This document shows positions 38,124 through 63,731 of a stretch of DNA of 64,000 bases, one piece after another. The stretch is from Brenneria salicis ATCC 15712 = DSM 30166 (GTDB lineage: Bacteria; Pseudomonadota; Gammaproteobacteria; Enterobacterales; Enterobacteriaceae). The stretch covers positions 1 through 64,000 of the forward strand of contig NZ_QNRY01000002.1 in assembly GCF_003315515.1 (NCBI RefSeq). Reading direction: 5' to 3'. A program made the translations under genes and the position numbers. Below the pieces are notes generated by a model. The model was not told the origin of the DNA and did not search any database. It saw only the letters and a program-made list of their open reading frames with translations. Each line of letters opens with the position of its first letter. Position 1 is the first letter of the stretch.

Positions 38124-39734
38124 CTAATGCCGGCATCGATAGGTTTTGTAATCCAACTGGTATTTTTCCATCCTCAAACTCAGTGTGCGGCGGGTCATGC
38201 TTAGTTGCGCCGCCGCCTGGGAAATATTCCCCTGATGGCGCGAGAGCGCTTCGACAATCATGTCATATTCGACTTTGGTCAATTGCGCTTCCAGTCCGGT
38301 CACGGCCTCGCCCAGCACGACGGGCTGAAGATTGATCGGTAAATGGTAGCTGTGGATCACCCCTTCATCCGCCAGCAAGACGGCCCGCTCCATGGTGTTT
38401 TCCAGTTCGCGCACATTGCCCGGCCAGCCATAATTCAGCAGCAGATTCAGCGCAGGAGTAGCGATCGAGGGAACATCCACCCCTTGTTCCTTGGCAAAAT
38501 GGGCATTGAAGTGATCGGCCAGGATCAGAATATCATTTCCGCGCTCGCGCAGGGGGGGAATGGTGATGGGAAAAACATTCAGCCGATAGAACAGATCTTC
38601 GCGGAATGTCCCGCTGGCGACCATGTCCTGCAAATTGCGATGCGTTGCCGCCAGAATACGTACATTCACTTTAATGGTTTCGTTGCTTCCCACCCGTTCA
38701 AAACAGCGCTCCTGTAATACCCGCAATAATTTGGCTTGCGCCGAGGGGGTCAGTTCACCGATCTCGTCAAGAAAAATGGTTCCCCCGTCCGCTTCTTCGA
38801 AACGTCCCGCGCGCCGTGATAATGCGCCGGTAAACGCCCCCTTCTCATGACCGAACAGTTCACTTTCAATGACGCCTTCAGGCAGCGACGAGCAGTTGAA
38901 TTTCACGAACGGCCCATTGGCGCAATGACTGTTATAGTGGATCGCACTCGCCACACGCTCTTTGCCGACTCCGCTTTCACCCAGAATCAATACGGTGGTG
39001 CGGGCATGGCTGACTTTTTCGATCATCTGATATACGGACTGCATCACCCGCGAATTACCGATAATGTTCGCTGGCTTGAACTTTTCCTGTAACGCCTGCT
39101 TCAGTAGGGAATTTTGCTCCCTGAGCACTTTCTGGTGCGCCCGCTCCAGCAGATGTAACTCCACCGCCTGGGCGATGGTGGTGGCGATAATCCGTAAAAC
39201 CTCCAAATCCAGATACAGCAGTTGTTCGTTGTTGTACAACCGCTCAATACCGATCGTCCCCATCACTTTCATGCCGCGTATGATCGGCACGCAGATAAAG
39301 GAAAGCTGGCGATCTTCATGTCGATCCCAGCTACCGGTGCGGTTCAAAAAACGCGGATCGTCGGCGATATGCGGCACGATAATCGGTTGCTTGGTTTCCA
39401 CTACTTTGCCGGTAATCCCTTCACCGGGATAATAGACGCCCCGTTCGGCCTCTTCCCGCGATAGCCCGAAACTTTCATGAATAAAAATCTGATCGCAACT
39501 CGCATCATAGAGCGTAATCATCGCGCGGGTGGCCTGAAGATGCTGCTTCATCAGTTCTAAAACTAGTTTCAACGTTTTGGACAGCGAGCCTTCGGCGCTG
39601 ACGACCTTGCTGACTTGCGACAACAGCGGTAATAACTCTGAACGGCATTCGCCTAACAGACAGGTAAACGCCAGCGGTTTTAAAATATGCCGCCCTGAAT
39701 CCGCCGCTGTCATACTGTCTTTTCTGCGACTCAT
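38124..39734 (-). CDS. anfA: AnfA, sigma-54-dependent activator of the Fe-only nitrogenase
   Basis: 536 residues (start at 39734, chosen for TCTGGAG eight bases upstream). N-terminal GAF sensor (about 45-200), preceded by a CX4C pair (residues 25 and 30) like the two Cys required in Azotobacter vinelandii AnfA; then an AAA+ domain with Walker A GESGVGKE, sigma-54 contact loop ESELFGHEKGAFTGA, Walker B GGTIFLDEIGEL and RLNVFPITIPPLRER; C-terminal Fis-type HTH (NISQAAAQLSMTRRTLSLRMEKY). It presumably turns on the anfH promoter when Mo is scarce and NH3 limiting. It lies downstream of anfO on the same strand, separated by 280 bp holding a striking palindrome. VnfA is the main alternative; the CX4C pair and anf genes favour AnfA. 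Confidence 0.88.
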   Translation of the reverse strand: MSRRKDSMTAADSGRHILKPLAFTCLLGECRSELLPLLSQVSKVVSAEGSLSKTLKLVLELMKQHLQATRAMITLYDASCDQIFIHESFGLSREEAERGVYYPGEGITGKVVETKQPIIVPHIADDPRFLNRTGSWDRHEDRQLSFICVPIIRGMKVMGTIGIERLYNNEQLLYLDLEVLRIIATTIAQAVELHLLERAHQKVLREQNSLLKQALQEKFKPANIIGNSRVMQSVYQMIEKVSHARTTVLILGESGVGKERVASAIHYNSHCANGPFVKFNCSSLPEGVIESELFGHEKGAFTGALSRRAGRFEEADGGTIFLDEIGELTPSAQAKLLRVLQERCFERVGSNETIKVNVRILAATHRNLQDMVASGTFREDLFYRLNVFPITIPPLRERGNDILILADHFNAHFAKEQGVDVPSIATPALNLLLNYGWPGNVRELENTMERAVLLADEGVIHSYHLPINLQPVVLGEAVTGLEAQLTKVEYDMIVEALSRHQGNISQAAAQLSMTRRTLSLRMEKYQLDYKTYRCRH

Positions 39735-39913
39735 GCTTTTTTCTCCAGAAGACATACCGGTTAACGCGAACAATTGAAACGTGCAAACAGAGTCATTGCA
39801 AAATAGAAGCCAGCTTCAGCACAGTGTGCCGCTTTTTATTACCTTGATTTCACAATCAATTAAATTACCTCCACCGGGGAGATGGCGTAAAAATGTTCTC
39901 AAGCGAACGCTTA

Positions 39914-39949
39914 CGCTGGAAAATGTACGTTTTGGTACATTTTCCAGCG
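39914..39949. promoter_or_regulatory. 36-bp perfect palindrome with GTAC-N6-GTAC core
   Basis: 15-bp arms (CGCTGGAAAATGTAC and its exact complement) around GTTTTG. The centre is GTAC-N6-GTAC, the spacing known for the VnfA enhancer of Azotobacter. It lies 65 bp after the anfO stop and 180 bp before the anfA start. It could be an AnfA upstream activator site, a terminator of the anfH operon (no T-tract, so weak), or both. A smaller AAGCG-AAC-GCTT inverted repeat adjoins it. Confidence 0.65.
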
Positions 39950-40014: not shown

Positions 40015-40629
40015 TCATTCCGGTGAAGCCGGGTGGATGGTGGCAAGCAGAAAGCCTTGAGGTTGAGGGTTAACGACAAGCGCCAGATTTAACGCCGGAA
40101 GTTGCTGCGCAAACCATTTTGGCAAATGGTCGCAGATGACGTTGAGCCGGGTGAATGCCCGCGCCTGCAAAAAAGGCAATAATAGTTGTTTTGACGTCAA
40201 TCCGGCATCGCTTGCCAGCGCCGTCATCAGATTGATGTGATACTCGCCGTCATCCGTACCCGCCTGAATATAGGTCTGTTGCGCGGCGACCTGCGGCAAG
40301 GCGCGTCGCCTGACCGAATGGTAAACGGCGCTCAGACACGCCTCCGACGCGCCACGACATTGCCACATGGTGATCCCCATGCCATCAAACCAGGCACGCA
40401 GCGCGCCATGAATATCCAGCGCGACAAAATGCCGGCACGCCGTAAGCTCAGTCAGCATCGCCAGCGTCCGGGTACGGATTTCCGTCAAGTCCATCTCCTG
40501 ACCAAGCGCATAAGGAATGTCTTTGACCGGACGCCAATGATCGCCGTAACAGGTAAATACCCGCACGATGCCGGGCGTAAACACCGAGGCGATCTCGCCT
40601 TGCGAATCTATAAAAACCGCAATTTTCAT
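40015..40629 (-). CDS. anfO: Fe-only nitrogenase accessory protein AnfO
   Basis: 204 residues. The N-terminus KIAVFIDSQGEIASVFTPGIVRVF and the segment following it fit the AnfO (Anf1) family, found only in species with Fe-only nitrogenase and encoded just downstream of the structural genes. The fold start resembles NifX/NifB-C-terminal cofactor-binding domains (KIAV...G), so cofactor handling is a reasonable guess, but its role is unproven. The start may be either of two adjacent ATGs (40632 or 40629); the second has better spacing to AGGGG. It lies 14-17 bp after the split-barrel gene and is the last gene of the anfH operon. Confidence 0.72.
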   Translation of the reverse strand: MKIAVFIDSQGEIASVFTPGIVRVFTCYGDHWRPVKDIPYALGQEMDLTEIRTRTLAMLTELTACRHFVALDIHGALRAWFDGMGITMWQCRGASEACLSAVYHSVRRRALPQVAAQQTYIQAGTDDGEYHINLMTALASDAGLTSKQLLLPFLQARAFTRLNVICDHLPKWFAQQLPALNLALVVNPQPQGFLLATIHPASPE

Positions 40630-40646
40630 CATTAGCCCCTGTGTGC

Positions 40647-41156
40647 TCAGAATCCGTGCTTTTTCCCTGTCAGGGAAAGGACATTGATGCGTATGACCTG
40701 AGTGGCTTTGAGGTTGGCCGCCGGGAAAGCGGATGGCCGCGCCGTAAACCGCTCAACTATGCGCTGCAACGCCGCTATTTTTTCCTGCTCGTCTTCCACA
40801 AACATCGCCTCGCCAAAGCCGATTACCGTGCGGTGCCGGGCCTCGAAATTACAGACCATCGCCTCTTCAATCACGCCCTGATCGACCGATATCACAAAAC
40901 ACACCTTGTTATTGCGTTTCATGATATCGATTTTGGCGCCGCTTCGGGCCGAATGAAAATAGAGCGCCTGTCCGTCCCAGGCATAAAATACCGGCACGGC
41001 AAAAGGAACATCGTCGCGGCACAACGCCAGATACATTATTCTGGCGCCCTGAATAATCTGTTCGATTTCCAGCCGGTCGGTAATTTCCCGATCGTCCCGA
41101 CGCATCGCGCCGTGAGGCCCCTGTGCGCCGGGCATTATCTCGTCTGTCGCTATCAT
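40647..41156 (-). CDS. Pyridoxamine 5'-phosphate oxidase-like flavin/heme split-barrel protein of the anf operon
   Basis: 169 residues. EITDRLEIEQIIQGARIMYLALCRDDVPFAVPVFYAWDGQALYFHSARSGAKIDIMKRN is the pattern of the NimA/PNPOx-like split-barrel family, with a flavin-binding SARSG(A)K element and a His (YFHS) that in relatives can ligate heme. No signal peptide. A flavin- and heme-binding oxidase, Anf3, is encoded beside anfOR in Azotobacter and thought to consume O2 near the enzyme; whether this protein is its counterpart is inference. It lies 12 bp after the HEPN-like gene and 14 bp before anfO, so clearly in the operon. Confidence 0.7.
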   Translation of the reverse strand: MIATDEIMPGAQGPHGAMRRDDREITDRLEIEQIIQGARIMYLALCRDDVPFAVPVFYAWDGQALYFHSARSGAKIDIMKRNNKVCFVISVDQGVIEEAMVCNFEARHRTVIGFGEAMFVEDEQEKIAALQRIVERFTARPSAFPAANLKATQVIRINVLSLTGKKHGF

Positions 41157-41168
41157 GATGACTCTCGC

Positions 41169-41567
41169 TTATTCTTCGGTCGCCAGCAGCGCTGAAAGCG
41201 CATTGCAGATGGTCAAAATCGCCTCTTTGTCGGCGATGCCGGGCGTGCCGTGGTGGTAATTGTCCACCGAACAAATGCCAAAGATGCCGTCCAAATGACG
41301 AATGCCGTCGCATAGCGCCGCAGGCAGCGGCATCTGCTCCGTCACGGCGGCCAGCAGACCAGCGTAATTATGGTTGAACGGCATGTTTCCCTGCCGTGCG
41401 CAAAGCGCGATCAAATAGTTTTCAACGGCGATCGCCGCCACGTTGAACACCAGACTGGGCGACTGCTGCTGTTCGGCAAACAACACCGCCCGCCGGTGAT
41501 AGCCCCGCGCATCCTGGTGACAACGCGCAAACCGTTCTTCATCGGTTTCAAAAATGTAGGTCGACAT
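41169..41567 (-). CDS. Small HEPN-like helical protein of the anf operon (AnfR candidate)
   Basis: 132 residues, all-helical by composition. SPSLVFNVAAIAVENYLIALCARQGNMPFNHNY resembles HEPN-fold proteins, which often act as nucleotide- or RNA-binding partners, but the catalytic RX4-6H motif is not seen. By position (directly after anfK) it may be the protein called AnfR in Azotobacter; this could not be verified. Good ribosome site GGGAGAG. It contains the His- and Cys-bearing stretch GICSVDNYHHG, a possible metal or cofactor site. Function unknown. Confidence 0.6.
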   Translation of the reverse strand: MSTYIFETDEERFARCHQDARGYHRRAVLFAEQQQSPSLVFNVAAIAVENYLIALCARQGNMPFNHNYAGLLAAVTEQMPLPAALCDGIRHLDGIFGICSVDNYHHGTPGIADKEAILTICNALSALLATEE

Positions 41568-45052: not shown

Positions 45053-45904
<852 letters not shown>

Positions 45905-45947: not shown

Positions 45948-45963
45948 AGCAACCTGCGTGCCA
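45948..45963 (-). promoter_or_regulatory. Sigma-54 (-24/-12) promoter of anfH
   Basis: Minus strand TGGCACGCAGGTTGCT, an exact match to TGGCACR-N4-TTGCW with GG and GC ten bases apart. Predicted transcript start is near 45938, giving a leader of about 55 bases before anfH. This fits activation by AnfA. Confidence 0.9.
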
Positions 45964-46009: not shown

Positions 46010-46146
46010 CTGATAAATAGCGATATTTTATCAGGCGCACCATTTTAAAAAGCTGAAAACCGCAAGCCTAACGCGAAGATTCGTTTATCCGGTTGATAAT
46101 ATTTCGTTCAGGAATGTACGATTTCACCGGCGATCGTTCGCGAACG
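46010..46146. promoter_or_regulatory. Candidate activator-binding sites upstream of anfH
   Basis: Three elements 75-210 bp upstream of the promoter: CTGATAAA/TTTATCAG with 9-base loop (46010-46034); GGAATGTACGATTT (46111-46124), which resembles one arm of the palindrome near anfA; and a perfect 12-bp palindrome CGTTCGCGAACG (46135-46146). The distance suits sigma-54 enhancers. Assignment to AnfA or to an IHF-assisted loop is inference. Confidence 0.45.
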
Positions 46147-63699: not shown

Positions 63700-63731
63700 A
63701 TGCAGGCTGGCGGACATCCGCCAGCCTGCAT
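63700..63731. terminator. Perfect hairpin downstream of the glycerate kinase gene
   Basis: 15-bp stem ATGCAGGCTGGCGGA with its exact complement and a 2-base gap. No T-tract on either strand, so termination is probable but unproven. 20 bases after the kinase stop. Confidence 0.6.

Follow-up and report, generated by a model that had tools for sequence, protein, structure and literature searches.

AnfA is the activator of the iron-only nitrogenase, a backup enzyme that works without molybdenum. In Azotobacter vinelandii, deletion of anfA is reported to lower the activity of the anfA promoter strongly under Fe-only conditions, which implies that AnfA activates its own gene from a sigma-54 start site; ModE sites are also mentioned for this organism (PMC9542535). 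This promoter (TSS1) is a close described counterpart of the one analysed here: in both, a sigma-54 promoter lies directly before anfA, an activator of the NifA/AnfA family is involved and positive feedback is the proposed outcome. On the other hand, anfA is activated by NtrC in the alphaproteobacteria Rhodobacter capsulatus (PMC6925177) and Rhodopseudomonas palustris (PMC12093980), so autoactivation is not universal. The AnfA consensus of R. capsulatus is given as TAC-N6-GTA in PMC7294313, which quotes TGT-N10-ACA for NifA and C-N-GG-N3-GGTA for A. vinelandii AnfA. Among enterobacteria, anfA has been listed in Kosakonia radicincitans (PMC6125372), while our literature searches, which for the most part did not extend to subscription papers, returned no paper on enterobacterial anfA control by title.

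The stretch of DNA analysed here (the window) comprises 64 000 nucleotides from Brenneria salicis and carries on its minus strand the order anfH-anfD-anfG-anfK-orf132-nim-like-anfO-palindrome-anfA (table 1). The anfA ATG is preceded by GGAG, and its position agrees with the original prediction, which placed the palindrome about 180 bp before anfA. Two conserved genes, also found in 12 relatives examined, occupy the interval between anfK and anfO (window 40647-41567); one encodes a pyridoxamine-oxidase/Nim-like flavoprotein and the other a 132-aa protein without a Pfam or NCBIfam match.

Table 1. Coordinates of genes and candidate regulatory features of the anf locus in the window.
Feature	Position	Strand	Basis or remark
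anfA, 536 aa, sigma-54 activator of NifA type	38124..39734	-	TIGR01817, 488.5 bits (scored from the TTG at 39773), below cut-off of 528.85
anfO	40015..40632	-	TIGR02940, 146.1 bits, cut-off 129.15
anfH, first gene of the anf operon	45053..45883	-	TIGR01287, above cut-off
Interrupted palindrome, 15-bp perfect arms and 6-nt loop	39914..39949		between anfO and anfA
Conserved 16-bp core, candidate distal enhancer dyad TGTACCAAAACGTACA	39924..39939	-	conservation
Candidate proximal enhancer dyad CGTTCGCTTGAGAACA	39894..39909	-	30 bp from distal dyad
Weak IHF-like site AATCAAGGTAATA between enhancer and promoter	39837..39849	-	
Sigma-54 (-24/-12) element of anfA TGGCTTCTATTTTGC	39798..39812	-	2 mismatches; kept in relatives
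Proximal AnfA-type dyad of anfH CGTACATTCCTGAACG, without TGT-N10-ACA	46105..46120	-	
Sigma-54 element of anfH TGGCACGCAGGTTGC	45949..45963	-	0 mismatches

The intergenic repeat had been described as a perfect 36-bp palindrome. Its two arms (39914-39928 and 39935-39949) are indeed 100% complementary over 15 nt each, but the 6 nt between them, GTTTTG, are not complementary to themselves, and the palindrome is thus interrupted rather than perfect. That arms of 15 bp are improbable by chance was borne out: 20 Markov-1 resamples of the window together contained 10 inverted repeats whose arms reached at least 11 bp (loop ≤20), all with arms of exactly 11, whereas the real window holds five such repeats, of which two have arms of 15 bp. 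One of the two is the palindrome; the other, with perfect arms and a 2-nt loop, lies at 63700-63731. Hairpins of such size are not unique to 39914-39949, as 14 with arms of at least 13 bp and loops of at most 12 nt occur in 465 kb of related loci, approximately one per 33 kb. A 66-bp stretch around the palindrome matched only itself in the genome, which rules out a dispersed repeat.

A stem of this kind, 65 nt past the anfO stop codon, could conceivably act at the RNA level on the anfHDGK-anfO transcript, by terminating it or by stabilising its 3' end, and a transcript-end hairpin was part of the original prediction. The minus-strand RNA stem is very stable (-23.0 kcal/mol), and the 111 nt around the palindrome have a z-score of -5.1. 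However, no T-run follows the stem, it is absent from the output of a terminator scan of both strands, and the outer stem is missing elsewhere: by hand count, all ten outer pairs form in the window and 0-6 of 10 in the 17 other clusters compared. Given the missing T-run and the unconserved arms, we reject a terminator as unsupported, and an RNA element of either kind is very improbable. The same scan returned a weak 6-pair site at 39883-39867, one of 12 found where 9.9 are expected by chance.

The DNA motifs at the centre of the repeat are not distinctive by themselves. GTAC-N6-GTAC (39925-39938) has no other exact match in the window, but at least one copy appeared in 16 of 100 shuffles, so the motif alone is not significant. 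Across the 3.9-Mb genome GTAC-N6-GTAC occurs 14 times and its reversed control 52 times; TGTnC-N6-GnACA has 41 sites and its reversed control 24. Both patterns are too unspecific genome-wide for other targets to be named. The core is the only TGTAC-N6-GTACA among those 41 sites. A further TGTnC-N6-GnACA match falls within the anfA coding sequence (window 39223-39238) and is probably due to chance. The sigma-54 element of anfA is likewise not significant alone at its mismatch level (67 matches in the window, 85.7 expected). As neither core nor sigma-54 element stands out in the window, the case rests on conservation.

A family-wide search with AnfO gave matches in 11 of 295 genomes. After searches of individual genera were added, and with G028 (a weak 60-base AnfO match) and L022 (Brenneria roseae, the same contig as L026) left out, the set comprised 18 clusters: five from Brenneria, six from genus g141, four from g23, two from g76 and one from g15. 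These 18 genomes are not independent, and the honest count is five genera. The order anfH-D-G-K-orf132-nim-anfO-anfA was that of the window in all 12 relatives first examined; for the five clusters that joined the set later, the check covered anfH, anfO and anfA. Among nine Brenneria genomes searched, anfO was present in five, NifA scored above cut-off in 9/9 and nifD matches were found in 9/9 (8 above cut-off). In one of the nine, G296, nifD is split into two overlapping pieces (C1:2516039-2517438), perhaps reflecting a frameshift or sequencing error. A class-wide search of 369 genomes with AnfG matched only the window's own genome, and a plasmid search with AnfD yielded three Nostoc records, two of them annotated as vnfD.

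Two dyads 30-31 bp apart are present upstream of the anfA sigma-54 element in all 18 clusters, across the five enterobacterial genera, and the palindrome core is the distal member of the pair in the window. Of the 18 clusters, 17 have an intact sigma-54 element (GG-N10-GC at -24/-12). The exception is L077, which has TGCC and whose element was assigned manually through homology; for L032 and L033, where a second candidate exists further downstream, we took the upstream candidate. The proximal dyad begins upstream of -24 at a distance of 95-98 bp in 16 of the 18; the remaining two, both from g141, have 115 bp (L076) and 125 bp (L075). Pairs were chosen by best score at a distance of 90-130 bp and a spacing of 30 or 31, with weights favouring the NifA type proximally; swapping the weights returned the same pairs in 18/18 clusters. 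A free search (spacing 29-32, distance about 60-200 bp, L077 added separately) placed the best pair at spacing 30-31 in 17/17 clusters with a correctly placed promoter, and in these 17 its pairs were identical to those of the 90-130 bp search. Additional overlapping dyads at 115-118 bp in g23 and g15 make the choice of distal site less clear there.

Looked for in other anf loci, the repeat was recovered in part: the core TGTAC-N6-GTACA is conserved, the whole palindrome is not. All five Brenneria distal sites read TGTAC-N6-GTACA and contain TAC-N6-GTA. Over the full set of 18, distal sites carry all six letters of GTnC-N6-GnAC in 14 cases and TGT-N10-ACA in seven; for proximal sites the corresponding figures are 11 and 17, the window's own proximal site (CGT-N10-ACA) being the exception. 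That site reads GTTC-N6-GAAC and so fits GTnC-N6-GnAC but not TAC-N6-GTA. The g141 proximal sites retain TGT-N10-ACA but match the AnfA-type motif at only 4-5 of 6 letters. The IHF-like site between enhancer and promoter has one mismatch to what we take to be the IHF consensus; its AAATCAA and AATAAAA segments are identical in the five Brenneria, and the IHF search pattern itself had no match in the window.

Set against described sites, the core resembles those of R. capsulatus AnfA: it fits GTnC-N6-GnAC and, through TACCAAAACGTA, TAC-N6-GTA, and it is one of two dyads upstream of a sigma-54 promoter. It differs in that the window's pair lies before anfA rather than anfH, and in the added outer T and A, with which the core also satisfies TGT-N10-ACA. 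By eye, C-N-GG-N3-GGTA is found on neither strand of the core. Compared with A. vinelandii as described in PMC9542535, enterobacterial anfA is located downstream of anfO and is preceded by two dyads at fixed spacing.

The conserved layout suggests that the core is probably the distal site of a two-site anfA enhancer, with AnfA its most likely binder (autoactivation) and NifA possibly binding too. An activator of the NifA/AnfA family would bind both dyads, about three helical turns apart; the intervening DNA would loop, possibly helped by IHF, and sigma-54 RNA polymerase would open the promoter of anfA, which lies some 100 bp further downstream. With AnfA as the activator, this would amount to positive autoregulation, while the outer TGT-N10-ACA bases suggest that NifA may bind as well. 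An enhancer with autoregulation of anfA had been anticipated for the palindrome, and the comparison supports it through the conserved core and its partner dyad at a fixed distance from the sigma-54 element, as does the AnfA autoactivation from a sigma-54 promoter reported in A. vinelandii (PMC9542535). The partner dyad and the fit of the core to the NifA consensus are new relative to that prediction.

The core had also been likened to the VnfA enhancer of Azotobacter. The spacing agrees: PMC7294313 quotes GTAC-N6-GTAC for VnfA, and the GT(T/A)C-N6-GTAC of PMC9542535 is close to it. VnfA is nevertheless an implausible binder, and we consider a VnfA site the least credible of the readings: the nifD model matched five places in the window's genome, each of them at a nif or anf gene, so that this search showed no vnfD-like gene and hence no V-nitrogenase gene, a further difference from A. 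vinelandii, and the same type of dyad precedes anfH.

The anfH promoter bears on the identity of the activator. GTnC-N6-GnAC is found 123-179 bp upstream of the anfH -24 in 18/18 genomes (best of 135 offsets in each), with a weaker partner, at 4-5 of 6 letters, a further 30 or 31 bp upstream, the only two spacings tried. This paired layout, common to the anfH and anfA promoters, argues that one activator, AnfA, serves both. Between enhancer and promoter of anfH there is also an inverted repeat, CTGATAAA...TTTATCAG (window 46010-46034), a possible repressor site, which has 13-bp perfect arms in L023 and L026.

The two promoters differ in the NifA-type motif. TGT-N10-ACA occurs 50-250 bp upstream of -24 at 18/18 anfA promoters but 0/18 anfH promoters, against a background of 0.045 per 200 bp in those loci. 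The single such site at the window's anfA promoter is the palindrome core, which starts 127 bp upstream of -24 and so roughly 150 bp from the presumed transcription start; NifA upstream activator sequences typically lie within 150 bp of the start. For comparison with genuine nif promoters, a strict filter (score 9) found two in Brenneria and relaxation to 7 gave 14 sites, of which nine were used (nifH 5, a small nif-cluster ORF 4) and the other five were judged spurious. In 5/5 Brenneria genomes fetched, nifH is preceded by TGTCTCCTTTACAACA or a near variant of it, 110-111 bp upstream of -24. The small ORF, whose L068 copy was tested and had no Pfam match, has a TGT-N10-ACA site at 98 bp in four of five. 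Like these nif sites, the core has correctly spaced TGT and ACA and lies at a similar distance from -24; unlike them, it has a C at position 5 and a G at position 12, a pair seen in none of the nine (a list pre-filtered for TGT-N10-ACA). The recognition-helix regions of the two activators differ too: TRR-x-L-x-LR in the 17 AnfA proteins with a readable C-terminus (L077 is truncated), TPRQVAYRIQIMNI in 9/9 NifA.

One could read this as an anfA enhancer that is mainly NifA's, with NifA activating anfA via TGT-N10-ACA and AnfA acting on anfH only. The contrast between the two sets of promoters speaks for it, as do the g141 proximal sites, which keep TGT-N10-ACA while losing AnfA-type inner bases, the location of the nine nif sites at 98-111 bp from -24, near the 95-98 bp of anfA, and the NifA found in all nine Brenneria genomes searched. 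Yet the distal sites hold on to the AnfA-type inner letters and have TGT-N10-ACA in just seven of 18, the inner C5/G12 pair is absent from the nine nif sites, and the window's proximal site departs from the NifA consensus. Zero TGT-N10-ACA among 18 anfH sites is, moreover, not in itself unlikely if the outer bases are neutral (about 0.3, if independent). We therefore regard a predominantly NifA-driven enhancer as unlikely, and AnfA remains the preferred binder. The 18/18 versus 0/18 pattern does suggest that NifA may start anfA, with AnfA then sustaining it. On sequence grounds we tentatively propose that the enterobacterial anfA enhancer might be a dual-read composite, in which NifA would start anfA when the cell fixes nitrogen and AnfA would then lock itself on, while anfH enhancers would answer to AnfA alone. 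Equally tentatively, the outer TGT...ACA might be read by NifA and the inner C...G by AnfA, the anfH sites being without the NifA-type bases.

Full arms are private to the window's genome among the 18, and the palindrome appears to be a species-specific enlargement of the conserved 16-bp core. The extra 10 bp per arm may represent lineage-specific perfecting of the dyad, without conserved function, perhaps by template switching of the kind described in PMC8794818. In comparison with relatives, the right arm of the palindrome agrees at 5, 4, 5 and 7 of 10 places and the left arm at 4, 2, 1 and 3 of 10, and the relatives vary among themselves on both sides. Rewriting of the arms by template switching is compatible with this comparison, though weakly supported.

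A ModE-box-like sequence, CGTTATATA...TATATAACG or near variants, is located just upstream of the anfA -24 in 6/6 g141 genomes (L027, L028, L073, L074, L075 and L076) and in 0/12 other anfA promoters searched with the same pattern; the motif used is one that we take to represent the ModE box. In Brenneria, where the pattern search found none, anfA differs in this respect from A. vinelandii. In one g141 genome of the six, L076, the box is enlarged to a palindrome (2261-2306) whose perfect arms measure 21 bp, a parallel to the palindrome of the window.

A striking perfect palindrome can be no more than a short functional dyad that has been embellished in one lineage, and caution is warranted in reading such repeats. 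From the parts of the literature considered here, the first switch-on of anfA differs by group, with NtrC acting in two alphaproteobacteria, and AnfA feedback together with ModE in A. vinelandii. The layout of the enterobacterial anfA promoters is compact and conserved, and single-base changes in it could separate the input of NifA from that of AnfA. If the dual-read enhancer holds true, it would constitute a built-in relay from molybdenum to iron-only nitrogenase.
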